NCBI GenBank assembly: GCA_012845835.1
Contig: JABAKD010000002.1
Span: 7,124,603 to 7,188,602 of the forward strand
Direction: 5' to 3'
DNA: 64,000 bases
Source: Undaria pinnatifida
Lineage: Eukaryota; Sar; Phaeophyceae; Laminariales; Alariaceae
Part shown: positions 1,291 through 62,605 of the stretch, in pieces
Layout: each line of letters starts with the position of its first letter
Position numbering within the stretch: the stretch's first letter is position 1
Program-made: the position numbers and the translations under genes
The notes under the pieces: model-generated
What the model saw: the letters and a program-made list of their open reading frames with translations, nothing else
What the model was told of the DNA's origin: nothing
Database searches by the model: none

Positions 1291-3332
1291 GTAGTTTTGG
1301 ACGAGAACATTCAGGCCGAGGGGGCATCCTACTGCGACATTGCCGACGTCAGCCCGTCTCCGGGCGGGCACGAGCTGGCGGCCTATGCGGCGGACATGAC
1401 CGGCTATGAGGTGCGTTGTGAAGGCGGGGGAGGGCATGGGGATAATCGTGATATGATGCATGGTCGTAGTCCGTAGGACCATAGACTCTAGCATCGCCAC
1501 AATGAAGGGCGGCACACGTCGGTTTTTCACCCTATCAGGCAGGCATTGCGTGCACCAAGTGCGAAACGTCATGGGTGCTCGGCGAGTCGCATGAAGGGTG
1601 AGTTGCATCCTACTAAGAACCACTTTTGAGGCGGGTTTCCGCACCTTGTACGTACTTTCCTGCATACGGATCGGGGCGGGGGGTTGCAATAGTCAGAGTT
1701 GTAACAATGAGTTAAACGGTGTGATAACGAGCATTAAGACCCGGCGCCCTACGTCAATATTTAGGACAGCGTTGAGCTGAACTGTCTGCACCCCCCCCCC
1801 TACCCCCCCCCCCACTTCATCCCCGCTCCCAACCCCCGGAGTCGCTGGATGGGTATTGTTCAGGGTTGGGTCAAGTCAAACCTCGCGGGTCGGGTCGGGT
1901 CGGGTCGGGTCGGGTCGGGTCGGGTCGGGTCACCTGCGCTCCCTCCCCCCCACCTCATCCCCGCTCCGAACCCCCGGAATCGCTGGGTGGGTATTTTTCA
2001 GGGTTGGGTTAGGTCGAATCTCGCGGGTCAGATCGCACCTGATCCGACCCGATCCGTGAGGGTTTCATGATCCCCATCCGACCCGACCCGTGAGGTTACC
2101 CGACCCGACCCGTCCCGTGATATTTTGAAAGCCTCCTGACCCGACCCGACGGGACCCGTGAGAGTTTGAATACTATCACCCGTAAGCAGGCCTGGTATTT
2201 TCAACCCTCGGCTGTATGTACCGCTCGACCTCGCCGTGTGTTTTAATGTCTCTGTTATGTGTGTGTTTTTTCTGCTGCTGTGCGATTTTGCTGCTCCTTT
2301 GTATAACGTTTCTGTTTGTAGTTGATACATGCGTGTTTTTCGCTGTTTCTGTGTTCGAAAGTGGTACATTTTTCCCTGTTTTTGACCTCCCTTGTGTTTT
2401 GGTTATATATTCTATGCATTTTCGCCGTGCGCTCATATGCCTATTCTCTCTATTGTTCACTGTGTTGTTTTTTGTATGCAACGAAAGCCGAACCAAGCCC
2501 CATTTTTTTCCCCTTTTTTTTTCGTCCCCCCCCCCTCCCTACGACGTTCGTCAATTTCCGGGACATCGCCACCGAAAAAAAGATCTGGATAACATCGTCG
2601 TGAAGAGTTTTCCCAGTGTTTGTTGTTGCGTTTGTTTTTTTCAGTTTCTGTTTTTTTCCTACCGATATGTCTCTGTGTGTTTTGCCTTACACTCTCATTC
2701 TCTTTTGAAATATGTACTGTGCCGTTGTTGCTTTTTTCGACGGAAACCCATGTGGGCTTTTGCTGTCGTTTTTTCTCATTTCTGAAAGACATACGACGTG
2801 AAATTCCGGGACATCGCGACGGGCAAGGACCTGGACGACGTCATCGTCAAGACCTCGGGGGATGTCTGCTGGGGGGCCGATGCCACCACGGTTTTCTACA
2901 CCACACAGGCAAGCATTTGGTGTTGATGTTGACGTTGGTTTTGTTGTTGTTGGTGCTGGTTTTTGTGGTTGTCGGGATGGGAGTGGTAGTGGTGTTGGTG
3001 AGTTGGTAGTGTTGGTGTTTGCGGTGGTCTTGGTGGTGGTAGGGGTGGTGGTGGTAAATGGTGGTGGCGGTGGTGGTGGTGGGCGCAGTAGGGAGGTTGG
3101 GGGGTCGAAGTGGTGATGTTGGCGTTGGTGGTGGTGGCGGTGCAGCTGAAAGTGGTAAAGGCGGTGGTGCTGGTGATGTTGTCGTGATGCTGTTGTTGTT
3201 GGGGGTGGGGGTGCGGGTGCGGGTGCGGGTGGGGATGGGGATGGGGGTGGGGGTGGTGGTGTTGGTGGTGGTGTTGATGTTAGTGTTGGTGTTGGTCTTG
3301 TGGTTGTTGCTGTTGCTGTTGCTGTTCCTGTT

Positions 3333-3363
<31 letters not shown>

Positions 3364-4888: not shown

Positions 4889-4928
<40 letters not shown>

Positions 4929-7900
4929 GGTTGTTGTTGTACAATGACGCATGTTATGGCAGAGGTGCCCCATTTGCCGTCTGAGGGTGGTTGCTTGAAC
5001 AGCTCCATAGCTCGCCCAAAAACTGTTCTCGAGTAAACCTGAAAGAGCAATCTGGATGAACAAAGTCCATGGCCCGTGGTCTATTGAAATAGGTAGCACA
5101 CAGAACAATCGTAATTCGAAACAAGAACGACATCCCGACGATTTTGGGTTAAGATTGGTTATGGAGCCCTTCAGTCAGAAAAAAAATGCCCTACAAGGAC
5201 TACCTCTACCGCAGCAAGCGTCTATTGTAGTGCTGAGTATGGTGTTGAGTATAGTGTTGGTGGCGTTGGTCTTGGCGGAGTTGGTGTTGGTGTTGGTGGA
5301 GTTGGCGTTGGTGTTGGTGTTGGTGTTTGTGGTGTTGATTGCGGTGCTATTTGTGTTGTGGTTGTTGGTGTTGGTTATGTTCGTGTTGTTGGTGGCTTTG
5401 GTTGTGCTGGTGCTCTTGTTGGTTTTTGTGTTGTCGTTGTCGTCGCCATCATCGTTGTTGTTGTGGTGGTGCTGCTGCTGTCGTTGGTGGTAGTGATGGT
5501 GGTGGTGGTGGTGGCGGTGCTATCATTGCTAGTGCCACCGCCGCCGCCGCCGCCGCCGTCGCTGCTGCTGCTGCTGCTGCTGCTGCTTCTTTTCCCCACG
5601 GCCGTGCTTACATTTTATGGCTCGTGCGATTTTTGTTCTTGTACAGATTCATGACAATGAAAGTGGGCAGCAAGACTACCTCGGAGATCCGTTTCGTCGA
5701 CCTTCAGGTGGGCACAACCTACGGTTCAGCCGACGGAATAACAGGCCGCACACGCTACTGCGCAGCTAATTGCAGTGTCTACGGCACGTGATCTGTCAAA
5801 TCTAGTGCACGCGCTACTCTAGCAGCTGTTTTAACAAGGCGGTAAACTATACTGCACAAAGCACTACCGCACAATATTGTGCACAGCCTCCTGCAGTAAC
5901 TACTCTAAAATACTACTGTAACAAGTCTCGTGCACATAGTACTCCCGCACAAACTACTGCACAACCTACTGCGATACCTAAGGAAGACAATGCTGTACAA
6001 TCTACTGCATTTCCTACTGCAATATCTACAGTGAAAACTGTTGTCAATCGTGCTACACAATCTACTATAGTACCTACCGTAAAAATATACGGTAAAAACT
6101 ACTCCTCAGGGTACTGTGTCCGTCATATCTAGAGCCAGAGGCAACGCTGCAACAATATGCAACATAAGTTATCCCGCTTCCCCTCTTCTTGCTTCAGGGA
6201 GTTCAAGGCAAAGAGGCGCACCGCCAGCTATCGCTTAAATTGGTCGCCGCAAGGAAGGAAGGCGTGCGATACGGAGTCGAGGTGGGTTTGTCATCGGCTA
6301 CCTTTGTTTCTTGTCTATGTCAGTCATATTTCCCATCCTCCCACACCCTCGGGGCTTCGATGCGGCACAGGCGCGCGTCGTCGCGTGATGCTGAGGCCCA
6401 CTCACTCTGTCTCGTTACCTCCCGCCCTCCCCCCCCGGCCGCCTTTCTCTCCCCGTCTCCTTGCCTCCTCCCCCGACCTTTCCCCTTCCCCCCGACCCGA
6501 CAAACGGCGTGTTCCACTAAGCACTTCACAATCAGCATCGGGCATCACCTCACCCCTCCCTCCTCCTCATACCCCTTCCATTTTATTGTTAGTTGTCGCC
6601 TTGATTTTTTCCCTTTTCCTTTCGTTTTCAATTTTGTTTCGTTTGCGTTTTCGTCTGTTTCGCATTTTTGTATTTTCGTTTTTTTTTTTTTTCCCCTTTG
6701 CGCTTTGTGTTGCGCCATATCAGCACTGGGGTAACGACTTCTACATCGTCACCAATGCGGACGGCTGCAAGAACTCCAAACTGGTCAGCACCCCTATCAG
6801 GCACGAAAACGACGTTGTTTAGCTTTTTTCCTGTTTGCCGTGCAGCGCAAATGACCCCACACGATTTCAATAATTCTGCCCCCGAAAAAATGGATGTGGG
6901 TCTATCAAGGGTTAAAAGTAAGTGGTTGGACTATTTTTGTACCCTGCTTGTATCGGACAGCTCACCAGCTCGCTCGCCGCCCCCCCCCCCTCCCCCCACC
7001 CATTCTTCGCTCTAACACCGACTCCCAGGTGCATGCCCTTCTCCCCCTTCGCATCCCGCCCCCGCCCCCCCCTCCTCCCAACCCGCACATCCTCCCCCTT
7101 CCCCCCCCCCTCACCTGAGCACCCCCCCCTTCCCGTCCCCTTCCTGTGCGTGATAATGAGTACATCCCCTCACCTCCCAACCCTATACCCCCCCCCCCTA
7201 ACGCCTCACGTCCAGCCCCCACTCCAGTCCACTCCACTCCCTACCCCTCCCCAAGTTCGCCGCCAGATTTTTATTTTCCCGGAAAATTGGAAAGTTTAAA
7301 AACACTAGTATAAGAAATTGGGCCCATAGACGACCGTCCAGGCAAAACCCTCCGTTGGACTAACCCCTTTACGGTTGAAAAAAGCCAGCCCACTCTTATT
7401 CCAAGTTTTTTCCCTAAACAGGGTAGTTGCGGTTCTAAAGGCAATGCCGTGTTTTGATCAGATTTTTTGTTTCAGCATGCTAGGGTCGGGATACCGAACG
7501 AGCGTGACGTGATGCCGTACAATCCATCGTGCCTACCCCCTTAATAGCCCCCCCCCCCGCCCTCGCGTCCCCTCCCGAATACCCCCTCCCACTCCCCCCC
7601 CCCCTCCCCACTCATTGGCTTGACACGCTTTTAGAGCACGCCGGGATCAGAAAGCTGGACGGACGTGATGCCGTACAGTCCATCATGTCTACCCCCCCTC
7701 CCCCCTTTCCCCCCCTCCTACTCACCTCTTCCCCCCTTCCGATCTACCCCCCCTCATTGGCTTGACACGATTTTGCAGCACGCCAGGATCGGAGAGCTGG
7801 AAGGACGTGATGCCGTACGACCCGGCGGTGTGCTTGAAGGGAGTATTGTGCTTCGAGAACCACATCGTGCTCAGCGGCAGGTACCATAATATTGTATGGA

Positions 7901-10900
7901 CGAAAAGGGTTTTGCATGGGTGGGGTAGGGGGTGCGGGGGTGGGGTTGGGGGAACAAGGGATTTCGTTGCTTTTGTTGTTTTCGTACAATCAGGCGGTGT
8001 GGTTGAAGGGAGTATTGTGCTTCGAGAATCGCATCGTCATTGGCGACAGGTAAAGGATATATCGATGAATGCGTTAAATGGGTTTTGAGTGGAAAGGGGG
8101 GGGGGGTATATAGGGGATCGGGTGATATATATTGTATTATTTGTTTGGCTGAGGTGTGCTTGAACGGAGTACTGCGCTTCGAGAACCACATCGTGCTTGG
8201 CGGCAGGTTACGGAATAGCAGTTGGATCGAAAGTGTTTTTGCATGCGTTGGGAGGGGTGTATGGATAGAAGAATGGGTGATAGATGAGTGGAAGGGGTTT
8301 TATATGGGTGCCGATGGAGGTATATGGGGGTGGGAGGGGTCTTCATTTGTTGTTGCTTCGTTTTTGTTGTTTGCCTTTGGCTGGTGTATGCTTGGTAATT
8401 GTGCTTCGAACGCCACGTTGTGCTTGGCGTCAGGTGACGGCAAAATTCGGGATGTGAGATGTGAGTTAGCTGACTAAAACGTAGCCGACTGGCTACTCGT
8501 TGACGACTAGTGAGTAGCCGGCTAAGATAAGTTGGCGACTAGCTGTTAGTTGGCTAGATATTTCAGCTGTTATAGCTGCGTGCCGTAGTTTTCAGGGCTC
8601 TGCGTCTTTTGTATCTTACTCGCGCGTTTGTGGCTCAGCGCGTGGTTTGTATTAACAAACATCAAGTCCGCAGGTTGGCTTTTATTAATTGTCGCCACCC
8701 AGCTAGCGGCCGTAGGGGAAATGAAGGGATGTTTTGTATGGGTGAAGGAGGGGGGTGAGCGGAGGGGACGGTTTTCGTTGTACTTGGTGTTTTTTTTTCG
8801 TGGATCCTTCGACAGGCATTTTGTAGCGGTTACTTTTTATATCTTATGATCCCCCCCCACCCCCGACTCTCACCCACCTACCCACCCACCTTCGCCCGCA
8901 TCAAAACCAAAACCAAACCGAATTAAACAGGGAGGGCGGCTTGTCTCAGCTGTGGATTCGCGACATGCGTACAGGCAACACTCACAGGCTCGAACACCCT
9001 GAGGATGCCTACGCTTGCTACTCCACCTCGAACATGGTGTTTGAGTCTGGCACCCTTCGCTTCGGGTACCAGTCGATGGTGTCTCCTCGAGCTGTCTTCG
9101 ATTACAACATGGACACCAAGTGAGAAAGGGGGTGGATGGGGGGAGGAGACGGGGTGGGGCGGGTCGGTAGGGGGGGGGGGGGGGGAGGAGGGATGGTCGT
9201 GGTTGGTCGTGGTGGTGGTGGGTGTTTGTGTTGGTCGTGGTTGTGTTGGTGATGTTGGTTTTGTTGGCGTTGTTGGGTACCAGTCGACGGGTACCCCTGA
9301 GCTGTGTTGGCCTACATCGTGGACACCATGTGAGGAGGGAGGGTGGAGGTGGTGATGGTGGTGGGGGTGGGGGTGGTGTTGTTGGTGTTGGTGTTGGTGG
9401 TGGGTGCTGGTATTTAGTAGACACCACACGTCGAGCCACAAATGCACCAGCCAGGTGCAAAGCCGCAGAATTTCGCTACATTTACCGCGCGCAACTAACT
9501 GTAATAACCAACCAATAGTCAACGGTCGGCGGCTCACAGTCAGCCAACTCACAGCCCTGTAATTTTTTCGTTTCTGTGCTAAGCTATATTTCGGGCAGGG
9601 TCCTGCTGAGGGTGGCATACTGATGAGCTGGTGTGGAAACCCATCTGATGCTGTTAAATTGCACGTTATTATTTACTATTGTTAAGATGAGTGTTTAAAA
9701 ATGTTTCATTTTTAGGGAGAGGGTCCTACTGAAGGAGAAGGAGGTGCCGAACTACGACCGCTCCCTGTACACGTGCAAGAGGAATGTGGCCAAGACTCGC
9801 GACGGGGTGGAGGTGACCGTTTTTCTTGCCGTGACTGGTGATGGTGGTGGTGGTGGGGGAGGGGGTAGTGGTGGTGGTGGTGTTGGTGCTGTTGGTGGTG
9901 GTGTTGGTAGCGGTGTTGGTGTTGGTGATGGCCTTGGTGGTGTTGGTAGTGGTGGTGGTGTTGATGGCGTTGGTGGTGTTGGTGTTGGTGTTGGTGCTGG
10001 TGTTGGCGGTGGTGGTGGCAGTGGTGGTTGCCATGTGGTATGGGGTGGTCGAGGTGGTTATGTTTGTGGTGGTGATTGACGTGAAGGTGGCATGGTGGTG
10101 GTGGAGGTGGCGGGGGTGGTGGGGCTAGGGTGGTGTAAGTGGGGGGGAGGTGAGGGGTGATGGTGGTGGTGGTGGGGTGATGGTGGTGGAGGTGCCGGTG
10201 TTGTTGGTGGTGTTGGTGTTGGTGTTGGTGTTGGTGTTGGTGTTGTGCTTGCGCGTGGCGGATAAACCTTAATTTAGATCCACAGGCAGTACGACTGCAC
10301 GTCCTCTTGCCAACTGCGTGTCGTTCTGATGCCAGCTCTGTTTTTGCTTTTCCTCCCACCCCGCCCTTTTTCCCTTTGTACCTGGTGCCAGTCTCCGTCG
10401 TTTGTCGGAAGGATGAGTCTTTCGTGTGCTCGTTCACCCCCGCCCCCTCCTTCGAATCCTTCGTTCCCTCCTCCACCTTCTTCCTTTCGCGTTTTGTTCT
10501 GGGGCTGGCTTTGTTTCCCCCCTCCGTTTTGTTCTGATGCCGGCTCTGTCTTCTCCCTCCCACCCCATCCTTGTCCCTTCTGTACCAGGTTCCGGTTTCT
10601 ATCGTTTACCGGAAGGATGTTTACCCGAACGGGGTAGAGGGGCAGGGAGCGCCTTGCATGCTGTACGGGTATGGGAGCTACGGGGCATCCATGGAGCCCT
10701 CCTTTGACTTTACGAGGTGTGATGCGTGGTGTTTTGGTTCTTTAAGTGTGGAGGCTTAGCGTAGGGGAGGGGGGGTGGGGGCGTTACGCTGTAGGTGGGA
10801 TTTTGTGACACATTTGTGTGTGTGTGGGGGGGGGGAGTAGTTCGTAAGTACAGGACACCTCCACGACCACCAAACTAACGCCACCAGCACCACCGCCAAC

Positions 10901-13900
10901 ACCGACACCAACATCAACATCACCAGAACCACAGTCGCCACCATCCGCGGTAACCCTGTCTGTTTCTTCCCCTCCTCGCTGCTCATTTTTTGGGTGATCT
11001 AGACTGAGTTTCCTTGACCGCGGGATGGTGTACGCGATCGCGCACATCAGGGGGGGGGGCGAGATGGGCCGCCCCTGGTACGAGGACAGCGGGAAGTTCC
11101 TCACCAAGCGCACCACCTTCGAAGGTAATTAGCTGTAAACGTAACCGTAGATGTAGCGTTAATTGTACTACTGCTCCCCCCCCCCCCTTCCCCCGTTCTC
11201 CTGTGTCTGAACCTTTTTATTTTTGCTTCGTACCTGGCATGTGTATAACCAAATTTCATGGACTGCGTGTAAAGTTCCTTACCAAGCGCACCACCTTGGA
11301 AGGTGGCTGTGTGTAGATGCAACTGTAAATGTAACTATACCCCGCCCCTCCGGCCTCGTTCCCACATGTGGAACCGCAATTATTGATTATATGTATAGCC
11401 TTTTTTTTACCCAGCGCAGTACCTTCCAAAGAGCGATGTGACCATGATCTTTCTAACTGCCCCCCCCCCCCCCCCCCCCCCCCCCGTTTCGCCTATGTCG
11501 AAACCCTTACGTGTACCGTGGTATACCTTTTTCTGGTATTTGTGATTTAACCTCGGTTTATTTATATACATACTGTGCAGCCAGATATCAGCGACTGTGC
11601 GGAGCACATGGTGTCCAAGGGGTTCACGCATCCGTCCGGGCTAGCCGTATGTCCCCCCGCCTGATTATATGGGTACACAACCCCCCCTCTCATGCCAATC
11701 ACTGCGTGAGCTAGACAACCGGGGTACCGTTTGTTTTTTTGTGGCGGTCACGATGATAGTTATCTAGTTAGATCATATTGTGCGGGGTGGAGAACCCTCT
11801 CTCCGCACAAGGGGAATCATCGCATCGAAACTTATTGTGAATATGGTAAGGCACCCACGAGGCAGTGACATAGTGATACCCATTGCTGTCTCTGGAGTGG
11901 CCACACCAGAAAATAAAGTAACTCATTGGCGCAGTCATCCATTAGGAAGAAAGTAGGCGCAAGGTGCCGAAGTCCGTCTTACGAGGGGTTCTTGAAAGGA
12001 TGCACTTCACCCTTGGTGCGACTCGCCGAATACCTCACGGCGCTTCGCGCTTGGTGCAAGCAATGTCTGCCTGGTTGGTGAAAACCCGACGTTCTCCATC
12101 CCGGCATTGTAGAGATGCGAGGGTCTATGGTCATACGACTACGACCAAGCACAAACTGAGTACACCCCCCCCCCTCCCCCATCCTACCGTGATGGATGAC
12201 ATGGTCACATCTCTCCCCACCGTTCGCTTACATATGTCGAAGCCCTAATACTGAGTTTTTATTACTGTACATAGACTCGTTTTATTTTCATGTTTAGTCT
12301 ATATTTAAAAAAATGCAAAAATACAATTCAGCTGTGAGATCGACCGAAAAATAATGGTCAAAACTCGTATACTTCGGAGTATACGTGCAAGGCTTCGGAG
12401 TGTTCATGGTGAGGGCAACGCAAGAAATATGGGTCCCCTCGGCGCCAGTAGCGCTTCGTCAATTTGATGCAGAGCAGCAGCAGCAGTAACGACGACGACA
12501 GCAGCAGTAGCGATCACATTGTATGCTCACTGCTCACCCAAAACCGAGAGCGAGCGCACTGACAGCGCGTTGAGACTAAAAAACATGAGAAAGTGAGTCT
12601 GCACTCTCGCGTCATCGGCCGTGCTCCATGCTTGTATAATATGTACCTGCAGTAGCATGTACGCATTTCTCAAGTATGCCAGCCTAAAAAACGCGTGCTG
12701 GCTTTGGGTATTTACGCCAACTTTCCGGAGAAATTCGTACCGGCGGTAGGTGGTGTGCTGTGCTGATTCTGCTGCAGTTTAAAATTGTTACAGAAGAGCA
12801 ATCGATATCTGTCTACATCTACATCGCTTTTTAGTTGCACAAGTCGTGCCACGGGAGAGCAAGAACTGTCTTCCGTCTCACGCCGCATCTCTCCTGAGGT
12901 CCATTCCGGAAGGGGGAGGGGGCAGTGCCAAAAAATAGAACCGACTGCCCCATGATAAAATACCTAAAAAAAATGTCACCCTAAGAGATAAGATAAAGAA
13001 AAAACGGACAGACCAGACTAATAGAGACCAACACCTGGACTTTTCGCCTGAGATCTGACAGCAGGGTAAACACTGCTGTAGTTTTACACTTTGGCACAGC
13101 ACCTCGCAGCAGCAGCACAGAGAGGAGGAGTTCCAAAGGGCACACATGAACCGCAAACAAACAACAAACTCGACATCCACAGCTCACCCAGCAGTGCAGA
13201 CAGGTGCCGGTGAGGCTTCTTCCGATAATATATGTCGTGCTCAGTATCATTCGTTCGGAGATCATAAGCACGCGTGTACGTCCGCGTGTACATAGTATCG
13301 TGGACAACATGCTACCACGAATGCTTTACCTTCGTACTGCAGACAGTATACAGCAGCATCAGCAGTACGAATTATTGAAACGCTTTGCGACAGCTGCTGC
13401 CGACGTGAAGTCAACTAACTGGAGGTTGTACCACCATCGATCTCGCCCCCAGCAAAACTACCACCCGGTTATCGGTGGCGATAACAAGAACCCACCCAAA
13501 AAGTTGGACGTGTGGTCTCTAGCACGGTACACATCGGCAATTTTCAACGAGATAAGTTAACCCGGGTACCGTACCTGTTCTCATTTGATTGGCCGGGTCC
13601 TCCTGGTGAATGTCTATCGGCTAAATGGGACAGTGCGTGGTTGTTCGCTTCAGCATCACGCAGCAGCACCACAACACAAGCTGTAGTCGAACCGTAGGTT
13701 CTACGAGAGCAGAATACAGCACAGCACAAACGTGTCAACTAGTACTGCTGTTGTACTGGTCGTTCTATTGGCAACGTGTCGCTACTGGTGTTGCCGGTGT
13801 GTGTACTGCCCTACAGGCGGTGCCGCTAGGTGTGCCGTTGTGTGTGTTAGATGTGCAGTCTTGCCCCTGGGTTGTCCCAGGTTTTGGGTTGTGTGGAGCT

Positions 13901-29160: not shown

Positions 29161-29169
29161 ATCCGGTAC

Positions 29170-30028
29170 ACCCATTTGCCTGCGCCCACTTGAGCAAGAC
29201 TATACGTCGCCCCGTCGCCCCCGCCCCACACGTATCCCCATCCCACAGACAGCCATTTCTCGCTTGCCAACATTAGCAGCAGCGAAGCAGCCAACGCAAC
29301 AGCAGAAATAACAACAGCAACAAAAGCAATGACCGCAGCAGCAGAAAGAAGCAGCAGAAGCAGCGGAGCCCGCAGAAGCTGCAGAAGCAGCGCCGTAAAC
29401 CAATCAGACACCCCCCCGCCTCTCACCCAGGGCAACCGTTCGCCTGAGCCCATCGCAACAACCCTCTACGTTGCCCCATCTCCGCCCCCCAATACGTATC
29501 ATCGCCCTTTGTCAACGTTAATAGCAGATGCATCATCAGCGACAGTATCACCACCACCATCACCACCATCACCATCACCACCGCCACCACCACCACCACC
29601 ACCACCAATCAACCAGTCTAATCCTTTCGTTGTCCCCTTCCCCTCTCTAGTAATAGTAAGAGTAGAAACGACTAAGGCAAGCAAAGTGCGTCCGAACCCC
29701 CCGCTCACCCGGGACACCCGCTAGCACGCGCTCATTTCAACAACCCTCTATGCCGCCCCATCGCCGCCGCCTTGCGCGTATCCTCATCCCACTGACAGCC
29801 CTTCGCCCTCGCCCACCACAACACCAGTAGCAGCCACAGCTGTCGATTTAGCAACAGCTACGGCAACAGCAACACCATCAACCGACCCGTCCCTTCCCCC
29901 TTTTTCGCGTTCGCCCCCACCCCCCCACCCCGGCTAACCCGGGACACCCATTAGCCCGAGCCCATTTCAACAACGCCCTATTCCGGCCCATCGCCGCCCG
30001 CCTAAAAGTATCCTTGTCCCACGGGCAA

Positions 30029-30068
<40 letters not shown>

Positions 30069-44751: not shown

Positions 44752-45732
44752 TCGGCAAGAGAGCCATTCGCGTCATGACCACCGTGGGTATTATTGCGGC
44801 CGTTGGGGTGTCTCTTGTCCTTCCGACGCACCCGTTCGTCCAGGATTTGCTGCATTCCCTTGGTGTCCTGCGCGGCGGGGCCCACGTTGCGTCGTTTTTT
44901 GTTATTTTCGTTATCGTTATGGGACAGTCGGATGATCATTGAACATTGTGCGGCATTCAAAAGCAAGTAAAATTGACGGCAAAGGACAAGGAAACGGCCT
45001 TGCAACATGGTGGGAAACAAAAGAACCGGAAAAGAAAGGGGAAAGGAGGAACTTCAGTGCAAGGAAGAAGCAAAGGGGCGGGGGTCAACACGACGGACAA
45101 GAATGGAAACTACCAGGTTTCGGCATTTGGACAGGAGAGGGGGGAAACGAACCCCGACATGAGGAATGGCAACGACGAAAGAAATGACAACTTCCAACGC
45201 TTCCAACCTTCAACGTGATGGCAAGGCACAAAGAAAACGGATGCGACATGGTATACTGCAGCCCGTACTACCGCTCCCCTGCTTATCGGCGGTGCGGTGC
45301 AGATACCATTTAGTACCCACTTGGTACCTGTTCCATCGGGACGTCTTTTTAGCCGTTTTTGGCCAGTTTTTAGGAAAACGAACTAACGTGAGATCGTCGT
45401 CATCATAATCATCATCCTCGTCATTCTTCGGCCGTGAAAATTGGAATATCCTCGCTATTGCAGCCGGAGGCAAGTGAAAGACACTCGAACTCTCACCGTG
45501 ATGACAAGAAGACGCAAAGAAAAGGGATACGATGTGGTATACCGCAACCCGCAGAACCCTTCCCTGGCATACCGGTGGTGCCGTGAACATAGTTTGGTAC
45601 CCCTTTGGTACTTCTTTTTTGGTCCATCGGGACGGCTATTGAGACGATTTTGGCTAGATTTCAGGTGCATGGGCTAATGTGAGATCATCGTCATCATCAT
45701 CATCATCATCATCATCATCGTCATCATCATCG

Positions 45733-45782
<50 letters not shown>

Positions 45783-48700: not shown

Positions 48701-51700
48701 CTTTCTGCGAGCCAAAAGCCTCTCAGCTCCTGCAACTCCCCCTTCCCCCTCTCCCGCTGTTTTACCATCGTCGTCCATGCCGTCGAGGGCAGATGCTGAT
48801 CCGCGGGGGACGAACGTGAACTCTGTGTCTCCTTCTCCTTCCTCTTCTGCGGAGTGGTCCTAAATCGAAACAAGGGAGGAGAAACATGCGAGTTGTTGTT
48901 TGGGGGGGGGTGGAGGGGAGGGGGGAGGGGGGAGGGGTAGGCATGCGGATGAAGGGCGGGGTCGGGGGTGAGGATGCGGGGGGATAGGCATGCGGATGAA
49001 GGGCGGGGGTTGGGGGCGGGGATAGGGGTTTCGTCGACGCGTGCTACGATAGAGGCACGTAGGTGAGGATGCGGGGGGATAGGCATGCGGACGAAGGGCG
49101 GGGATTGGGGGCGGAGATAGGGGTTTCGTCGACGCGTGCTACGATAGAGGTGCGTAGCATTGTTCTGGGCAAAAACGTTTTCTAAGTGACGGCGGCGCCT
49201 TTAGCCCAAAATCGTCGGATTTTTCACTACTTTTTTTTGCTACCACAGATGTAGCATTATTTCACTCCGGGGAATTTTTTTGACTGAAGACAATTTGTGA
49301 ATTACGGGGGGCGTCTTCATCCAAAACCATCGGATTTTTCACTATTTTTTTTTTTTTGGGGGGGGAGGGCAACAAGTTTTCGTTTGCTACACCTATAACA
49401 CGCCCATGGGCATTTTTTTTTTTATCGGGAGAACAGAACGTCTATTTTTTTTTTTTTTTTCCACAACCGATTTTTTTGGGCGAGGTATTTAGAGTTCTCC
49501 TCACGCAGCCACCCCCAGGAGGCAAAAAGAACGGTCCCTGCACCTATGCCATATCATGCGCCTGTCAACTTATACCGGGTACCTGTGATGGACGCCACGA
49601 TTGAGGTATACCGTTTTTTGGCGAACACGTTTTGTGGATGACGCGGTTCCTTAACCCAAACTCGTCGGAACTTTATCCTTTTTTTTATTTTTTTTTGCAC
49701 GATTTTTCGTCGGTACACCCGACCCAGGCCATTAGATGCTTCATCGGGTGGCAGTTTATTTTTCATCAGCCTCTCCAGGCGAGGAGCCGCGGAAAACAAA
49801 AACGGTGCAACTCTAACGTATTATGCGTCATATATGTTACATGATGGGGCGGGGATGGAGTTCCACTCTTTCAGCTACCATTACAAGGTTTCCCGTTGAG
49901 ATGTCGGCGGCTTCAAAAAAATCCCGGGGTTTGGGGTTTCGGCTTCAAATCCCGGCGTTTGGGGTGTCGCAAGCTGAAAATAAAAGGGGGAACACAGACA
50001 GGCGTTCCTACGAGCGAGCTCAAGCCAGGAATACCACAACAACACAAAACTCTCGCACAACTAGACACACAAAAAAAAAAAGAACAGCAGCCACCGCGCA
50101 GGTAACAGGGCAAGGAGGAACACTCACCACCCCGAAACGAGCTTACAGTCTACCTCATACCACTCTCTGTCCGAAAATATAAGCACATCACGACACAAGC
50201 TGCGGCAGAGAGGGGGTCACCCTTGGGACTTTTTCTTCAGCAGACCAATGCTAGGCCACGGGGGGGGGATCCCCTCTTGGGCACTTTTTTTCAGTGGCTT
50301 TCTCTTGGGCACTTTTTCTTCAGTGTCTGCGAGTGACCCCCCTGTTCCTTGCGGTCACAGGCTTTCTTTCGTGTTTAACATACTTTTCGGTATCAATACG
50401 AAAAGGGATGGTTAGCTACGCTGCAACAAAGAAACCACCGAACGTGTTCTTGTCAGTGACGTACAGAGTCACTCGCGCGAGTGGCTCAGACGCGGTAGTG
50501 AAAAAATTGGGGGTACCCCCCTACCGTACGTAGCCTTGACAAGAGGTATACCCTTTTTTGGCGTTGAACCGGAAGTGGAACTTGGGGGTACCCCCCTACC
50601 GCACGTAGCCTTGATAAGGGGTATACCCTTTTTTGGCGTTGACACGGTAGCGAAAGTTGAGGGTACCCCCTTACCGTAGCCTTGGTAAGAGGTATACCAT
50701 TTTTTTGAGTTGACCCGGTAGCGAAAATTGGGGGCACTCCCCTACCCTAGCCTTGATAAGAGGTATACCCTTTTTTGGCGTTGACCCGGTAGCGAAAATT
50801 GGGGGTACCCCCCTACCGTACGTAGCCTTGATCTGCAGTGGCTCGGTGTCACTCGCGCGAGTGACCCCCCCCCCCGTTCCTGTTGCTGTCTTAGCCTCTC
50901 GTGCTCAGAAAAAGATGCGATACAGGAATCCGCGACGGAATAATAAGCTACGCCGCGCCAAAAAATAAAATCGTCTCTCAAGTCTTTGTGTCCGCGAGGT
51001 ACAGAGTCACTTGCGCGAGTATGATAGCTCAAAGCAGGTAAAAAAAAGGGGGCACCCCGTTTACCGCATATAGTCCTTATTGTATACTAATAGTAATGCA
51101 AAACGGTGCTTACATTTCCATTACACATGGGCGCGGGGTACAAGCTACCCGAACGCGGGCCCGAAGCGACTCACGCAGCCAAGCCCACAGCCATGCTCAC
51201 CTCCTCCTCCTCCTCGTCCTCGTCGCTGCTGCCCCCCCCCCGCTCGGAAGACCCCGCCGAAGAAGAGTCGAGAGCGTCCTGCAGCAGAAGCTTCCGGGCG
51301 CGGCGTACAGACTCCTTCTTTTTCTTCTTCGCCGCCACGGCAGCAGGGTCGGCCGCTTTGAGTCTCTTGTTCTGGCGCTTGTTCTTGTTTTCGTTTTTCT
51401 TGTTTCCCCGACCCTGGGAAGACACGCCTTCCAGGCCTCGCTCGTCATCACCATCATCGCTATCACTATCACCGTCACCATCGTCATCGCTGTCACCGCT
51501 ATCCTCGTCTTCGCCGCTGGAATCGTCGTCCCCGCTTGACGATGCGAGGTAGGCCTGGGTGGGTAAGGGCAGTAGCGTGGGGCATGCCGGGGGGAGGGGT
51601 GGGGCGGATAAGAGGGGGGAGAGGGGGGGGGCGTACTCAATTGTTGCTTGCCTTATTCCGTTCGAGCGGGGGGGGGGGGGGGGGCTTATTCCGTTCGAGC

Positions 51701-54700
51701 ATAAGGGGGGGCGGGGGGGGGGGTGGGCTTCTTCTGTTCGAGCAGAGGGGCGGGGCGGGGGGGGAGGGGTTATTCCGTTCGAGCGAAGGGGGGGGGGGGG
51801 GGGGGGCGTACCCATTAGTCGATTGCCCCAGTCATTGTAACATCCACCACGCACCCCTTTCGACACGGTGGGGAGAGGGCTTGCGGGGAGGGAGGGGGGG
51901 GGGAGCGGGGGTTGTGGAGGGGGGGGGTGTACTCCTTTGTTGCTTGCCCTAGTCATTTGACCATTGACCACACATCCCTTTCGAGACGGAGCACCGTTCC
52001 TTCTTCACAAGGAGAGACCTCCAGCGTTGCACGGTTCCTAATCCTACTAGAGACACCTCCAACAATTCGGCACTCCTTAGGCGTTACCCATACAATACTG
52101 TATTCCAGGTATATTTTTGCTTGTATTATCTCTTCCCTCCTTGGCCGTCTGGTGCCACCATCTACCTCCTAGGAAGGCGATCGTTTTTCTCACTACTATC
52201 CAATCTATCACACTTCTCCATGTCACTTTCCGTCAATTTTCCTCATCTCTTCCTCTAAATGCATTCCGTGTATCCTTGCGCATGTTCACATTCTCGCGCT
52301 ACAGGAGTTCTACTCTCATCTGCTTTGCCACAAGCGCACTTGCGTTCATCTTCCCCTTCCACCCAACTACTGGTACACACAGTTCTTTCTGGCAGGTCAA
52401 GGTCTTCTATTAATACACGAAGTCGCAGTTTCAGCGTTTTCGCGTGGTCCGTTGCGGCATGTACATGTACAACTTCAATCATATATATTTTGGGATCAAT
52501 GAAGCCTCTGCCTGGAGGGAGGGGGGGGGGGGGGGGTACTCAGTTCGTGCATGGCCGTAGTCGTATGACCATAGACCCTCGCATCCCTACTATGCCGGAC
52601 GGAGCACATCGGGTTTTCACCAACCAGGCAGACATTGCTCGCACCAAGCGCGAAGCACCGTGAGGTGTTCGGCGAGTCGTATGAAGGGTGAACGGCATTC
52701 TTCCAAGACCCGACGGCGGCGGCGGAGGAGGGGGGGGGTTACCTCGAAGTCCTCCTCTGCCGCATCCCTCCACTGGGAAACCCTGCCCAGGAGCACCTGC
52801 CTCTCCAATGGAGCTTCGTCCCAGGTGCATTCCACCCTCGTTTGCTGGAGAGCCTGTCGGGTTTTTTAGCAAGACGTCATCAAAAGGAAAAATTATTTTT
52901 TAAGGTCACAAAGGCAAAGGGGGGGGGGGGGGGGGGCATAGTACAAGCATGCTTAGCACTTTGCGCTTTTGCAAAATTCCATCGAGGCAAAGAACCAACA
53001 ACCCCGACCAAGCCATCCACCCGCAAACCATCCACCATACATATGATAGAGCAGTTAAGTGGAAACTGCAGTAGTAACAAATTTATAAAATAGGTGTGAT
53101 GTTTGATCTAGCTCAAAATTCCCCACCCAAAGTAAAAATACCAACACTTATCATTATAGTGGAGACTAACAACATATATACGATATATATATATTTTTTT
53201 TTAAAACAAAATAATAGGACCCCTCCCATGAAGAAAAAACTCACCCACATAGAATATTACAAGTACCAACAACGCAGCTTGCAAAGATGAGTACCGACCC
53301 TCAATTCGTCGAACTCACAGCTGACGTCCTTATTTACATATATTTATAAAAGGAACGCAACATAAGGCAAACGGGGAGGTTGGAGGAGGCTTATTACGGG
53401 CACTTTTCTTTACCCCCTGTTTAGCACTGCCCAGGTTAGGGCAATGTTATCGCAACAAAATTATCACATGGGCAAAAGTGGATGGGCGGGTGGGGGGGGT
53501 TACTTAGCTTGTGCAGGGCCGTAGTCGTATGACCATAGACCCTCGCATCCCTACTATGCCGGGACGGAGCACGTAGGGTTTTCACCAACCAGGCAGACAT
53601 CGCACCAAGCGCGAAGCGCCGTGAGGTGTTCGGCGGGTCGCATGGAGGGTGAACTGCATCATTCCAAGAACCGCTCGTAAGACGGACGACGGCACCTAGT
53701 GCCTACTTTCTGGCTTATGGATGACAACGCCAATGAGTCACTTTGTTTTCTGGTGTGGTCACCCCAGAGCAGAAGTGGATGGGGGGGGGGCTATTACAAC
53801 CATGTTTTTTTACCCCCTGGTTAGTACTGCGCATGTTTGGGCAATTTTATCGCAAGAAAGGACGTCACAAAGGAAAAAGTAGATGCGGGGGGGGGGGACA
53901 CGTTTCACGTGTGTTACAAAGAAAGATGTAATCGCGAGAATGAACGTCGCAAAAAGGGGAAAAAAAAGGCAATTGGGGCGTGGGCATGTTGCGGTCCTTT
54001 TACACCGGTTTAGTGTTGGCGACCAAAAACAGAAAGGGGTTTGACTTGATTATTGCTGTTTTTTTAGTCTTTCCGTGATTACTTAATCGTGATAACTTGA
54101 TTTCATGGTTTGTGGCGTTTCGCATGGCATACTAGAACCCGAACACAAAGCTCATATGGCATTTTAGTGGGGTAATACTGAAACCGATAGGATTAACGTG
54201 CACGCTAAACCATATACACTTTTGGTATGGTTTTTGTATTATGAAGTCTAAAATCTGCACACAATATTTGCATGGTGTTTAGTTGGCCATACAGCTAAAA
54301 AACTCGACAACAAATTACGGCGATGGTGACTGGATTACTATTACATTTTTGTTCATTTAAATGTCATGATTATGATCATTTTTTTTTCAATTCCCAACAA
54401 ACACCACCCCGGTTTGTCACTGTGCGTTTTGCGAAACGTCATTGCGAGTGAAAAAACGGACCGGGTGTACTTGTACCCGTTTTTTGTTATTTCCCTTCCC
54501 CCGAAATAAGCACTGGAAGCACACCTTGCAGATGAAGGAAGGCGGCTCGTAGGACGAAGGAACCGACGCGCAGCGGTCGCGAAGCTTTCGCTCCGAGAAA
54601 GAAACGCCGTCCGGGATGAACCGGAGGTCTAACGCCACCGAAGAATGCTCGAACTCCATCCCATCTACCTCCCTGTTACTCCGGATAAGGAAGACCGAGC

Positions 54701-57700
54701 GGGTAACGGAAGGAAAAAACAAAAACCGGGGGAACGGAGGGGGGGGGGGGGAGGCAGGAGCAGGAAGGAGGGGTGGGTGGGGGCAGGAGAAAAGGGGGGG
54801 CGGGGCGGGGACGAGAGGGAAGGAGCGAAGGGGGGGGGGGGGGGCAGGTGGGCAGAGGAGATGGGGGGTTTATTTAGCACGCCCTTTGACGCTAGCGGTA
54901 CGATTTTGTCATCGTTATACACCAAAGAAAGCCCACACGGCGTAAACACACTTGAAACCCTTCCTAGAAACGCCCTATGTGCCCAAGCTGGAGCCAAACC
55001 AAAGATCCCCGACACAATTGAGGTGCTGCCACCGAAGCAAGCCCACACTGCGTAAACACATTCGAAACCCTTCCTAGAAACGCCCTATATGCCCAAGCTG
55101 GAGCCAAACCAAAGATCCCCGACAAAATTGAGGTGCTGCCCAACGGGTGGCCCCGAAAATAGCCCAAACCCAAACCTAACCCTAACCCTAACCTCGAGCC
55201 CAACGTAACACTAACCCCGGCCCCCTGACACCAACCTAGCCCTACTTCCAATTTAACTCTTGACACTAGCACCAACCTAACCCTACGTCCAACTTAGGTC
55301 CATACCGAACCCTAACCCTAACCCTGGCCCCGATGCTACCCCTAACCCTAACCGTGCCCCTATGCCCAACCCTGACTCTCAACCTCAAGCCTCACCCCTA
55401 ACTCCACCAGAGGCGTCCTATCGGCGGGACCCCTCCCGTCTGCAGCGTCGGAGAAAACACCATCCACCCCAGAGGACGGTACAATATTGTCAGGAGGTAT
55501 CTTGTGACGCGGAAGTGGACCTGCACCCCAGCACAGCCCCAACCCAACCTAAACCTGACTCTAACTCAACCCCTTCAGAGCCCCCAAATCCCCCTATACG
55601 AATTCCATGTAGTTTCTCCCCCAAAACAGGTTTCCCTATGTAAAGGCGCTATCCCCATGTCTAGCCCTAACCCTGACCCCCACCCTCATCCTAACTCGAG
55701 TCCCCACATACCAACCTAGCCCTACCTCTGACTCAACTCAGGCACCAACCCTGACTGTAACCCGAACCCTACACCCAGTCTCAACCCTAACCACAACCCA
55801 GACGACGATGAAATATCTTGCCTGTAAATAGCTTCCGCGGCGGTAGTAGAGCTGCACTCCAGCACGGCGAAGTAGTACTTCAGCTTCCTCAGCTCGTACA
55901 CCCTCAGCTTCTCCGGGTTGAACCCCGCCGAATTAACCTCAGCTCCCTCCTCCCCGTTCTCACCGCCCCCCTCCTCCTCCTCCTCTTCTTCCTCCTCCTC
56001 TCCCTCCTCTTCCATCCCATCGTCATCGCCGTCCTTCCCACCCCCCCCCTTCCCCGCTTTCTTCGCCTTGAAGCTAGAGCTATCACCATCACCACCACCA
56101 CCACTACCGTCACCATCACCATCGCGATACTCCTCGATGATGATCCCCGGGCGACGGCGGTGCACTATCCTTCCGTCGACGGCGGTGCCGACCCGGGTAG
56201 AAACCTCCACCGTCCCCGCTTTTCGCTCACTTTCCCCCCCGCTATTGGAGTCGCCATTTTCCAATGAAGAAGACCCCCCCTTTCCCCCCCCCTCCTCATC
56301 CGCCTCCTCCACCTCCTTCTCCTCCTCCCCTTCTTCGCCTTCGCTGTCGCTAGCTTTCACCGCCGCGCTATGCATCCCAAACAAAGGGTTGGGGTTAGGG
56401 GTGGGATCAAAGTTGGGGGCAGGATGAGAGTCAGGGTTGGGGTTGGGACCACGTCTACGGTAGGCGGTTTACTTTTCGGGAGCCTCTCTTAGCAATGGTT
56501 ACGTAGGGCGACTCGCGAGGAAGTGACTCCCTCTGTTCCTTTGCAGCCTTACTCCTTTTTAGTACCGCAGTCCCGACACGGGGGGCAAAAAAGACACTTG
56601 GAATTAGAACAGGGAAAAAAACTAAGAGTTGGAAGTGCCTTTGGAAAAAAAAAAATGAAACCGCCATGAAATGGTGAGTTAAGCTATTATGCCGTTGCGC
56701 GAAAAAAAAATAACCTAAAAAGCTTTTTTTCGTCAGTGAGGTACAGATTCACTCGTGCGAGTATGATGGGAAAAAAAGCCCAAAATCGGCAATGAGAACA
56801 CGAGTGGCTCAAACCCGGCCGTGAAAACGCGACTGGTGAAGAAACCCGGCAGTGAAAAAGGGGGTATATCATAACATCATCATAACATCATCATAACATC
56901 ATCGCAACATCATTATAACATCACCATAACATCATCTTAACATCATCGTAACATCGTCGTAACATCATCGTAACATCGTCGTAACATCATCGCAACATCA
57001 CCATAACATCATCATAACATCATAGCATCGTCATAACATCATCGCAACATCATCAAAACATCATGACACCATCGCAACACCATCGCAACATCATCATAAC
57101 AGTCCTCCTCTTCCTCCTCCTTTTTCGTCGTCGCTACCGCTAGCCTTTGGCGCCGCGCAATGTATTCCCAACTTATGTTGAGCACACATGCTGCTAATAG
57201 TACAGCAGAGGTGCACTGATTCATTCTTCTGAGACTTCCTCTTCACCCAAGGAGCTCCAAAAAACCACCCCAAAAAACTGATACCAAGAGAAAATAAAGT
57301 ACAACTTCATGAAAAATCCCATGGCCTACATGTGGCCAAAAAAACAAATAATGAAAAAAAAATTGGAATGGGCATTCCGACGATTTTTGGTTTGACCCCT
57401 TCAGAGCCCGAAAACCCCTCCATATACTACTTCTAAGTAATTTTCGCCAAAAACAGGTTTCCAGTTTCAAAGGCGTTAAGGAGGCCCCCGCCGTTCAGAA
57501 AATATCTTGTGTCGAAAGCGTTGCTCTTATCGTAACTCGCGTGTTAGGGCTAAGGTTAGCGTTAGGGAAAGGATGACGTTAACGGGTAAGGTTAGGGTCA
57601 GGGTTGGGTCAGAGATGGGGCTGGGGTTGGGACTGGGGTAGTGCTGGGCTTACTGCAGCATGTTCGTGTTTTTCATATCCATATCCACTCGTTTCAAAAA

Positions 57701-58580
57701 CTAACGAGGACCGTTACGCCGAACCTTCTCCTCCCCCCTCTCCTAACCACGCATTTTTCCAGCAAGGGCGGCGTGCAGAGACGTCGTCGCTTCGACCTGC
57801 ATCATCATCTCCAGCCCACGTAAACACGGATACCGCCTCCGCCACCACGTAAACACGGATACCGCCTCCGCCACCGGCACGTAGCTACAAAAACCGATAG
57901 GTTTCCGTCACACAGCAACTTGTTCCGAGTTTTACACTTTCCGACAGTTACACTTTCCCGACCGTTACACTTCCTGACCGATACAATTTCCAACACGTAC
58001 ACTCTCCGACCGGTACAATTTCCGAAAAATCCACTTCCCGACCGTTCCACGTCTCGACCGTTACGCATTCCGACAGGTACATTTCTGCAACTACCGTTAC
58101 GGTTACATGTCCCCCGCCCCCCGCCTCGCCTCTCCCGCCTCCCCACCCTCCCCGTCCGAAACAAAAATCACCGTTTTCCAGCCAGGGCGGCGTGCGGTCC
58201 TGCGGCAGCCTCGACCTTCATCATCTCCAGCCCAAAGTCCGACGGATATACCGATACCGACAGCAGCCTGGCGCTGGCGGGGCAGAAGGAGCCGCACAGC
58301 ACCATCAGGTCCTTGGCACGCATGTGGTCCCAATCACAGTTTGTGACCGCGAGACGGCAGGAGGTTTCCTCGGAAACCGGGATGGCTTCGCGGGAGGGGT
58401 CGTCTAGTCCCGCCCTCCCTCCTCCTCCGTCTGCTTTTTCATTTAAAGGGTACACCGGGAGGCAGCAGCAGCAGCCGGTTGAGCAGGAGGAGCAACCGTT
58501 AAACACACGCAAGCAGATGAGTGGAAGTATGGATGGAAGGACGGATGGACGGATGGAAGGATGGATGGATGGATGGATGG

Positions 58581-58616
<36 letters not shown>

Positions 58617-61600
58617 ATGGATGGATGGATGGACGGATGGATACTTTTACATAACGAAAAAACAGGCAGCAGCAGTAGCTTCACGAGGTTTTCTCGGAGA
58701 CCGGGATGGCATATCATAGAGGGAGGGGGGTCGTCCAGTGCCGCCCTGGTCTCCTCCTCCGTCTAATTTTTCGGTTCTTTTGTAAGGTTAGAGGATAGGC
58801 GAAAGCAATTGCAGCGACAGCAGGGGCGGCCAAACAACCAAGCAAACGAATGGGTAGATGGATGGTGGATTTATATTGTTTTTAGAGGTCAGGCAGCAGC
58901 AGTTACGAGGTACAGCAGACAAACCAAACATGCGGGTCGATATATCGATTTCATAATGTAGGGAGTTAAAGGCAGCTCAAAAGAGCAACCCCCCTCCCCC
59001 CCGCCCCCCCCTCACTTCCTTCCCGGCCCTCGCCTGAATCGGACGCATCTTCGTCTTCATCGTCCTCGTCATCATCGTCCGATGTGTCCGAAGCAGAAGA
59101 TGAGCCCGAAACCTCTCCGCGAGAGAGGCGCGTCAGGTACGCTTGTCTCGACTCTTCCGGGGTTGCAATCTTCCCGTCCCCCCCCTCCCCCTCTTCAGCC
59201 TCCCCCTCTTCCTCCTCCTCCTCCTCCTCCTGCTCCTCCTGATCCTCCTGATCCTCCTCCTCCTCCTCCTCCTCCTCCTCCTCTTCCCCCCCCTCCTCCT
59301 CGTCCTCCTCCTCGTCCGCCTCCTCTTCCTCCCTCTCCTCCTCCTCCTCCTCCTCCTCCTCGTCATCATCCACCTCCATGCTATCAGCTTTTGAGTTTTT
59401 TTCCCCGCTCTCTTCCACCTTGTAGAAAGCGCGAAGCTGGTTCTTCGCTTTGGAGGGCGCCTTGCCACTGACCTTACGTCCGTATTTGTCGATCTTGGCT
59501 GCTCATCAATCCAGGTTAGGAATTTGGTGGGGGTGGGGGTGGGGGGGGGAGGGGGGCTTAGAAACGGATTTATCTCGGGAGGAGGGGAACGCGGGGGTGG
59601 GTACTCTTATTAATAGAATGTCGGGGGGGGGCTAGAACGTGCTTTTGTCTCGGAGACACAGAATCATTTCAAAAGAAGATTGTCAATTTCTTGGTATACA
59701 GTATACACTCTCGTGGCCTTGGTGGAAGCCTTCCCGCAGACGTTAGGTTCATATTTGTCGATCTCGGCTGCTCCACAGTCCAGCAAAAATATTGGGAGAG
59801 TGGGGGGGGGGGGGGGGTGTACTCGATATGGGGGGGGATACGGGGAGGAGGTTAGAAAAAGAGCGTGGAACAACTACGACGAGTATTACCATGCTGCCTG
59901 CGCGCGTGTCTTCCAATTGTTTGCATCGCAGTTCGGACATACCCCCCCCCGCACCCCAAACAGCCCAAAAATAGTTGCGTGGCCGACGTCGTCACCGTAA
60001 TCTTTAACGAAATGTTTTCCCTCTCACATCTCAAAAGGGTTGAGGTAGTGACAACACCAGCACCAAATTCTTCAAAACTTTCCACCTCCAGTCTCCAGCC
60101 TCACAACAGCAGCAGCATATGCATAATAGGTGCCGATCAGATACGCACCAGCTTCCTGCACTCTGCCGTACATTATTTGCTTGTCTAATACCCACTGTGT
60201 CCATATCTATCTTCCTGAATGACAGCTAATCTCCACTAAACTTGCTCGCTCATACTCGCATGTATCCCCTGATCAAGATCCTTCTAAATATATTGAGATC
60301 CATTCCCGCCCCACAAAAAAGCCCAAAATTTACTACGTCCAATCGCACACATTGTTACATTCCAGTGCATGGTGATTCCAGTGCATGGTGATATACATAA
60401 ACAACACTATAGACTCGTTTGAGCTGGTCGACGTTTTTTGCCGGGCTTCTTGGGGAAGTGGCTGCAATGGCTATAGCTATTGGCCATTTTTCCCCCTTTA
60501 CTTTTTAAGAGCTTTATGTGTAATACACTTGCGACACCCCCGGTATTTCAAGCCAACCGCATCCCGGACGGGAACCTTGTATAAATAGTATTTATTACCA
60601 CGTATGAATACCTGAGTGGGGGTCCCCCCAAAGTGCCGGTTGAAAAGTGCCTACTGCCTGCGTAGTGTCGGTTGAACAGTGCATACTGTCGGTGTAGTGC
60701 CGGTTGAATAGTGCGTACTGTCGGTGTAGTGCGTGCTGAATAGTGCCGACTGCCGTTACAGTGCCGGTTAAATAGTGTGTACCGCCGTTATAGTGCCGGT
60801 GAAGTCGATTGTCTCCACTGGAATCCGCTATACTACAGTAGTACCAGTATATCGGTACTATAGAGACTTATACCCGATAATGCCGGTGCCCGACATACTG
60901 CCGGTATAGTTGGCTGGCACATACAGACCCTACAGGGATAACATCACTGTGTGAGTCTGTATCTCCTGCTGCCAGCTCACCTGAGGATACCTGGAAGCGA
61001 GCGTCCGTCAGCACCGCCTTGAATCTGTCATCCAGCTGAATTTTCCGCTCCTCGGGTTTCACTCTTTGGAAGGCCTGTGGGAGAGGGGGGGGGGGGGAGC
61101 GTGTATCCGCGTTTTGTGGCACATTGTACATTTAGTGGGGCTGTGGGTTGGCCGACTGTAAGTCACCGACTTGATAATATTGATAGTGGTTCTTGTTTGG
61201 CTACATTAGTTATTGCAGCTAGTGGTGTGAGAAAAATCTGCGCAGTTCTGCGCCTTTGCATCTGGGTGACGCGTGTGTGACTCGACGTGTGGTTATTATC
61301 GCTAACTCAAGATGGTAGTTGGATTTTGCATTTTTCGTCGCCACTGAACTATGATGGACTAAGCAATAAACTCGTTTGGGCTGGCCAATGCGCGGTGGCT
61401 ACATTTCCATTAGTTTTCACGACCCCCCCCCCCCCCCTTGTGACATCCCCGGGAGTTCAAGCAAATCACATCTAGTAGAGGAACCTTGTAGTGATTAACA
61501 AGGTTTCCTTTCGGGATGTGGTTGGCTTGAAAACTTCCTACAAGGTTCCCCTTCGGGGTGTGGTTCGCTTGAAATCCCGGGGGTTTCGCAAGTTGAAAAA

Positions 61601-62605: not shown

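Follow-up and report, generated by a model that had tools for sequence, protein, structure and literature searches.

The introns of three neighbouring genes of the brown alga Undaria pinnatifida raise the question of why decayed pieces of exons lie beside the exons themselves, and of what these pieces tell about the way in which the introns have grown. The window, that is the whole stretch of 64,000 nucleotides analysed here (C26:7124603-7188602), belongs to a surveyed genome of 511,146,479 bases in 68 contigs. It carries an S9 peptidase gene on the + strand (17 exons modelled, the N-terminal part lying beyond the window; Pfam Peptidase_S9_N 4.1e-70 and Peptidase_S9 3.5e-62), an ankyrin gene on the - strand (two exons modelled; Ank_4 4.8e-23) and an ESF1 gene on the - strand (12 exons modelled; RRM_ESF1 4.4e-46 and NUC153 4.5e-8). 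The joined reading frames of these 31 exons are open, and the 28 introns between them total 34.6 kb, with a median length of 1.1 kb. GC donors look common, being present at 4 of the 29 donors of the window, namely P2 (2909), P6 (6801), E5 (55821) and E11 (46534), and at 8 of 67 exons outside it (L023, L033, L042, L044, L056, L060, L070 and L073), this second share being approximate because the matrix used to set the outside sites allows GC.

Partial copies of exon edges in the window

Each exon was aligned with its own flanks, taken up to 3.5 kb on each side with the other exons masked, and the threshold was given by 60 dinucleotide-shuffled flank sets. Among the 25 same-strand matches obtained, 21 lie at the expected edge, none at the wrong edge only and 4 at neither edge (on P16, E1, E3 and E8), in agreement with the single fixed geometry claimed in the initial annotation. 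Three of the 21 sit at the stop-codon end of P16, the last peptidase exon, and not at a splice edge. Scores of 145-459 were measured for 19 of the 21, against shuffled maxima of 84-168 for the same exons, which sets these copies apart from random intron sequence, and two copies are marginal (the third downstream copy of P7, 110 for a threshold of 93, and that of P14, 97 for a threshold of 85). Inverted matches numbered 8 and were weak (scores 88-110), five of them being on exon E11. Self-alignment and targeted alignment added a copy at the 5' edge of P10 and second copies at the 5' edge of P7 and the 3' edge of P11, so that at 14 of the 58 splice edges of the window the neighbouring intron contains a partial copy in the same orientation, for a total of 22 copies, where a dozen or so edges had been announced. 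Eight of these edges belong to the peptidase gene, four to ESF1 and two to the ankyrin gene; 8 are acceptor and 6 donor edges. Upstream copies hold the 5' part of the exon and downstream copies its 3' part, none being on the wrong side. The 3' edge of E5, a fifteenth candidate (score 110, under a cut of 120), was left out of the count. The exon-edge observation holds. As for the scale of about 100-350 bp first proposed, the median distance between copy and parent, 309 bp, falls within it, whereas the spread is wider, from 142 bp to 1.3 kb with one copy at 2.8 kb.

The clearest case is P7 (7779-7880, + strand), an intact parent exon with two upstream and three downstream partial copies, the former retaining approximately the first 40-49 bases of the exon with AG and the latter its last 48-73 bases with a GT donor. 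The first upstream copy (7637-7676) is 90% identical over 40 bases at an offset of 142, with intron homology of 25/29 and AG kept, and the second (7476-7528, end approximate) has 35/49 identical bases, one frameshift and AG kept. Downstream, the three copies are 81% identical over 73 bases (7977-8049, offset 169), 88% over 58 (8149-8206, offset 326) and 79% over 48 (8386-8433, offset 558, the marginal one). In P7 and in the outside exon L024, which is also copied on both sides, upstream and downstream copies break near the same exon position (40/49 and 30/45 in P7, 59 and 62 in L024); this shared break position is perhaps a fragile spot or a coincidence.

The other peptidase copies are all on the + strand. 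Copies of the 5' part lie upstream of P2 (2789-2908; copy at 2549-2606, 77% over 56, offset 248, acceptor AG unaligned), of P10 (10589-10716; copy at 10385-10415, 24/31 in the exon and 38/48 in the intron, acceptor AG changed to TG, self-alignment pairing 10314-10415 with 10522-10619) and of P12 (14344-14516; copy at 11585-11651, 76% over 67, AG kept). The P12 copy is now about 2.8 kb from its parent, with a dispersed element (11880-12184) in between. Copies of the 3' part with GT lie downstream of P8 (8931-9119; copy at 9273-9328, 79% over 56, offset 211), of P11 (11003-11124; copy at 11260-11302, 90% over 41, offset 176) and of P14 (16347-16469; copy at 16741-16783, 76% over 41, offset 312). 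A second, short 3' copy of P11 (11403-11430, 20/28) is weak (score 73) and its donor is unaligned.

On the - strand, the ESF1 gene has copies of the 5' part upstream of E3 (59498-59016; copy at 59711-59767, 75% over 57, offset 269, intron 33/48, AG kept), E4 (58430-58172; copy at 58682-58762, 86% over 73, offset 332, AG kept) and E5 (56367-55822; copy at 57103-57157, 80% over 54, offset 790, AG changed to TG), and one copy of the 3' part downstream of E4 (57755-57847, 74% over 90, offset 418, donor unaligned). The ankyrin exon A2 (31014-30175, - strand) has two upstream copies of its 5' part, at 31157-31279 (79% over 121, offset 269) and 32205-32337 (86% over 118, offset 1323, with 4 frameshifts). 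Four copies of its 3' part lie downstream, at 29939-30046 (86/108, distance 236), 29709-29841 (109/133, distance 466, with an in-frame stop), 29427-29507 (57/81, distance 748) and 29164-29271 (80/108, distance 1011, GT lost). These 3' copies are the weakest cases because A2 is an 81-bp repeat array that may terminate, on its 3' side, in a stop codon (CPW-TGA) instead of a donor.

Kinesin and chaperonin exons and the absence of whole-exon copies

In the same genome, 130 kinesin and 57 chaperonin matched stretches served as the outside sample, of which 67 of 187 were examined (56 loci and 11 exons from 10-kb regions, with flanks of up to 1.5 kb). Left out were L010 (a duplicate of L009), L031, L035 and L055 (at least two stops) and, from the 10-kb regions, two rows with an internal stop and one at a region end, while L029, L036, L037, L049, L050 and L065 were kept despite one internal stop. 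These 67 exons and the 31 of the window were scanned uniformly at a score cut of 120. Over the 98 exons, 46 same-strand matches were found: 12 upstream at the 5' edge, 27 downstream at the 3' edge, none at the wrong edge and 7 at neither. The 39 matches at expected edges include the 3 at the stop-codon end of P16; a single inverted match was detected, and the wrong-edge count stays at 0 at score cuts of 100, 110, 130 and 140. Matches were carried by 20 of the 98 exons (9/31 in the window, 11/67 outside) and by 25 of 196 exon sides; the pattern described from three genes is thus present in two unrelated families as well.

The seven matches at neither edge are those of L030, L046 (three), L072 (which ends 10 bases before the edge), one in the ankyrin array and one at P16. 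The automatic setting of splice sites outside the window misplaced L030 and L046, and left L037 and L038 without AG at the set edge; the four matches of L030 and L046 thus involve edges that the splice-site model probably set wrongly. Judged by eye from the letters, the L030 match and two of the L046 matches would cross the true 5' edge and the last L046 match would be intron only.

Could such matches be fortuitous similarities of low-complexity or pyrimidine-rich sequence? These introns are rich in simple repeats (short-period repeats make up 8% of the window introns) and a few weak matches do look like chance (E1, E3 downstream, E8 and the inverted ones of E11). Flank swaps within the gene families gave 44 matches from related exons, and the control therefore consisted of unrelated loci, between which swapped flanks gave background matches only, the expectation being about 1.5 against the 46 same-strand matches observed. 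Together with the gap between observed scores and shuffled maxima reported above, this leaves chance a negligible probability as the general explanation. For the strong copies it is ruled out, and the cases that stay weak on score alone are P14 (97), the third downstream copy of P7 (110) and the second copy of P11 (73).

Two observations were made on individual outside genes. The 3' edge of the chaperonin exon L058 (6273-6445 in the L073 region) has six decayed downstream copies at about 6645-7133, spaced 79-87 bp apart, and this array reads as an exon-seeded minisatellite of donor sites. Two kinesin genes located 29 kb apart (G000:C2:16034374-16037637 and C2:16063521-16066784) have identical scores for three exons each, and are perhaps the result of a recent larger duplication.

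The side on which a copy lies is fixed by the way in which it would arise, because the extra half can fall only upstream when the duplication spans a 5' edge, and only downstream when it spans a 3' edge. The informative point is not this side geometry but the missing whole-exon class: none of the 46 same-strand matches over the 98 exons covers both edges. A length model predicts that 13-27% of detectable events would be whole-exon copies, and the probability of their absence ranges from 0.0008 under this model to 0.04 when adjacent repeats only are used; with random placement of the observed events, 2.4 whole-exon copies are expected against 0 seen, which is not significant (P 0.11). With this reservation, we infer that whole-exon copies were removed by selection. 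In the self-alignments, 24 events span an exon edge, where random placement would give 13.1 (P 0.008, with the ankyrin and P16 rows counted). Despite this approximately twofold excess, we do not claim that edges are hotspots of duplication, because old copies are more readily recognised beside a conserved parent.

Decay of the copies beside constrained parents

The decay of the copies was followed on 36 hand-listed copies at 22 edges of window, kinesin and chaperonin exons. This set includes the second upstream copy of P7, the P10 copy and the second downstream copy of P11, and excludes P16, E1, E3 downstream, E8, L013, L030, L041, L046 and L072; the downstream copies of L041 and L046 were dropped since the targeted alignment matched the parent itself, and the upstream ones of L046 since the edge was mis-set. 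Mismatch frequencies by codon position were 0.152, 0.174 and 0.291, which gives a third-position ratio of 1.79 (95% interval 1.59-1.98, bootstrap over edges), with values of 1.86 for the window (22 copies), 1.68 outside it (14 copies) and 1.75 without the ankyrin copies (30 copies). A ratio between 1 and 2 is expected if a constrained parent adds mainly silent changes at position 3 while a free copy changes everywhere, and the pattern fits such a pair of constrained parent and freely decaying copy. A frameshift or a stop was found in 23 of the 36 copies. The proposal that exon fragments can be used as datable markers is supported by these 36 decayed copies beside constrained parents.

The homology reaches into the intron in most cases, 32 of the 36 copies being aligned over 8 intron bases or more, and this homology beside the splice site indicates that the source was DNA. 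Identity in the intron flank is 0.74 upstream and 0.68 downstream, near that of codon position 3 (0.71), both flank values being upper ones because local alignment trims the ends.

A different reading is that the copies are functional alternative exon ends (acceptors, donors or mutually exclusive exons) maintained by selection. The splice dinucleotide is kept in 24 of 29 copies (AG in 8/10, donor in 16/19), and some exons, such as L043 and L058, have 3-6 donor copies in a row, as this reading would have it. Free copies are themselves expected to keep the dinucleotide at a frequency of 0.70, and retention among the 29 copies is not significantly above neutral (P 0.38 for acceptors, 0.13 for donors). 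On general grounds, two functional coding copies would be expected to give a third-position ratio higher than the observed 1.79. We consider functional ends very unlikely and reject functional alternative exons on the basis of this ratio and of the frameshifts and stops in 23 of 36 copies.

Local tandem duplication and the growth of introns

Local duplications were surveyed in 258 kb of sampled sequence as repeats of at least 60 bp at offsets of up to 1.5 kb, leaving out L014 (which overlaps L011) and pairs lying wholly within the ankyrin exon. The survey yielded 126 independent direct duplications against 7 inverted ones, with offset quartiles of 130, 240 and 372, and no such repeats appeared in any of three local shuffles of the window. 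As a measure of head-to-tail contact, the aligned length reaches 60% of the offset or more in 52 of the 126 events, the 74 others being below this value owing to later insertion, decay or other reasons. Two younger intronic tandem duplications lie in ESF1 introns, at 54920-55140 (110-bp unit, 93.7% identical) and 48967-49157 (95-bp unit, 94.8% identical). Perfect two-copy duplications found by TRF have a junction homology of 0-5 bp (9 rows, two of which are the same place), a very small sample in which the units measure only 15-36 bp, short of the longer class.

Transposons or reverse-transcribed RNA could also bring exon fragments into introns, and dispersed elements are common in those of the window, e.g. 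the one at 11880-12184 with relatives at 17345, 32738, 33028, 52517 and 53480. Against dispersed insertion or retrocopying, the copies are local, on the same strand and on the one predicted side only, the intron beside the splice site was copied too, which points to a DNA source, and direct pairs far outnumber inverted ones (126 to 7). This origin is in our view highly improbable and, on account of the intron sequence in the homology and of the one-sidedness of the copies, it was rejected.

Taken together, the same-strand orientation, the right side, the intron homology and the decay of the copies are in agreement with the idea, put forward in the initial annotation, of tandem duplications crossing an edge with one exon left intact, and repeated short tandem duplication across exon edges, one intact exon surviving, very probably explains the copies. 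In this mechanism, stretches mostly of about 100-400 bp would be repeatedly duplicated in tandem in and around genes. A duplicate spanning one edge would leave the exon intact and add half an exon that carries a splice site of its own, upstream for a duplicated 5' edge and downstream for a 3' one. Splicing would keep using the intact exon, and the extra half would become neutral intron and decay. Whole-exon duplications and shifts inside the exon would break the mRNA and be removed by selection, so that the edge geometry would remain. The tolerance of extra sites may be due to the spliceosome choosing the closest acceptor-donor pair, and the near equality of acceptor and donor edges in the window (8 and 6) suggests that extra acceptors and extra donors do not differ much in the harm they do. 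In a comparison across species (PMC6142364), Ectocarpus is a named exception to the link between exon skipping and an exon-definition architecture, and this exception does not favour a nearest-pair choice.

How much of the introns was produced in this way is a separate matter. Direct local repeats cover 14% of the window introns and 8% of its intergenic sequence (inverted repeats, 1.8% and 1.5%), and local repeats cover 9.7% of all the sampled sequence. Dispersed repeats within the window account for 10.5% (direct) and 8.1% (inverted) of the introns, and the greater part of the intron sequence falls into none of the repeat classes. With a recognisable coverage of this size, the earlier assertion that introns grow mainly by tandem duplication was not retained. 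A neutral simulation reproduced the observed coverage with a gain of about 0.25 bp per substitution and the observed event density with one of about 0.5 bp, which is an order-of-magnitude estimate since the length distribution was our own choice and two replicates were run per setting. The duplication input would then be roughly 0.25-0.55 bp per substitution, a large value for which dominance is unproven.

Other repeats were noted in the window. A dispersed element of about 200-300 bp is present in both orientations, in introns and between genes, its copies being about 75-92% identical (11880-12184, 17345-17567, 32738-33052, 33028-33287, 52517-52712, 53480-53793 and 1453-1671). A long CCCGA/CGGGT pentamer array occupies 33549-33872, with a related short array at 1886-1931, and sequence near the long array recurs near 36109-36284.

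The steadiness of the process, and with it the steady supply of new splice sites that had been suggested, is doubtful. By steps of 0.05 in divergence, the 126 events are distributed as 2, 12, 11, 16, 18, 27, 22, 10, 7 and 1, so that only 2 are less than 5% divergent, a smaller number than expected from a constant rate, and a copy with an identity of at least 0.93 is present at only 1 of 23 edges. The edges may owe their copies to a single burst or a few bursts in the past, which is compatible with the tandem-duplication explanation. The thin youngest bin and the rarity of near-identical edge copies speak for bursts, as do constant-rate simulations, which yield more young events (e.g., with a gain of 0.4, 9 of 103 are at least 95% identical). 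Assembly may nevertheless collapse near-identical tandem copies, adjacent-only events have a flatter distribution (from old to young 7, 14, 8, 4, 8, 9 and 2) and the numbers are small; bursts are a possibility to be taken seriously, somewhat short of a probable one.

Patch-mediated repair was reportedly treated in rice by Vaughn and Bennetzen in 2014, and in intron gain by tandem genomic duplication the copied stretch is said to supply the splice sites. Tandem whole-exon duplication, as in mutually exclusive exons, leaves local exon-derived copies in the neighbouring intron, as here; those of Undaria differ in being partial and decayed, and the ones that reach an edge include one edge only. 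Among the short (<100 bp) insertions of the human genome, small tandem duplications are the commonest class according to Schimmel et al. 2021 (PMC8355091). End-joining of staggered breaks gives local, direct, head-to-tail copies; the Undaria copies are likewise local, direct and, it would seem, head to tail, but they are old splice-edge debris, mostly 100-400 bp apart and up to six in a row. The duplications may arise by repair of staggered breaks or by slippage; the local duplications fit either pathway, the first as presented in PMC8355091. In the reported cases of intron gain in potato RdRp (PMC4974935) and Drosophila (PMC2891723), duplication takes place within a gene as well, but it yields a new intron, whereas here an existing one is lengthened. 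No new intron or exon formed from edge copies was found, the copies lying inside modelled introns and 23 of 36 having a frameshift or a stop. Introners and transposon-driven intron gain (the subject of PMC9860276) likewise add intronic DNA carrying splice sites; introners are dispersed, whereas the copies described here stay beside their parent. A search of literature titles and the beginnings of abstracts returned no description of exon-edge fragments as markers of intron growth, which is not proof of absence.

We put forward a joint reading tentatively, as one that may well prove wrong. Local tandem duplication could rank among the principal long-term contributors to intron DNA, adding roughly 0.25-0.55 bp per neutral substitution, and exon choice could tolerate outer splice sites, hence about one fifth of exons with decaying edge copies, which would act as a clock of intron growth made of a constrained parent and a free copy. 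In some genes this would lead to exon-seeded donor minisatellites, as at L058 with its six copies, and the input may have slowed recently.

The origin of long introns is usually credited to transposons, and here another source lends itself to a gene-by-gene count, because the conserved exon to which each copy is anchored reveals the stretch copied, the direction and the approximate date. The share of tandem duplication in intron growth becomes measurable in this way in a long-intron lineage, probably the brown algae. The same exons also provide a natural test of how splice sites are chosen, one acceptor or donor occurring two to seven times next to a single exon.
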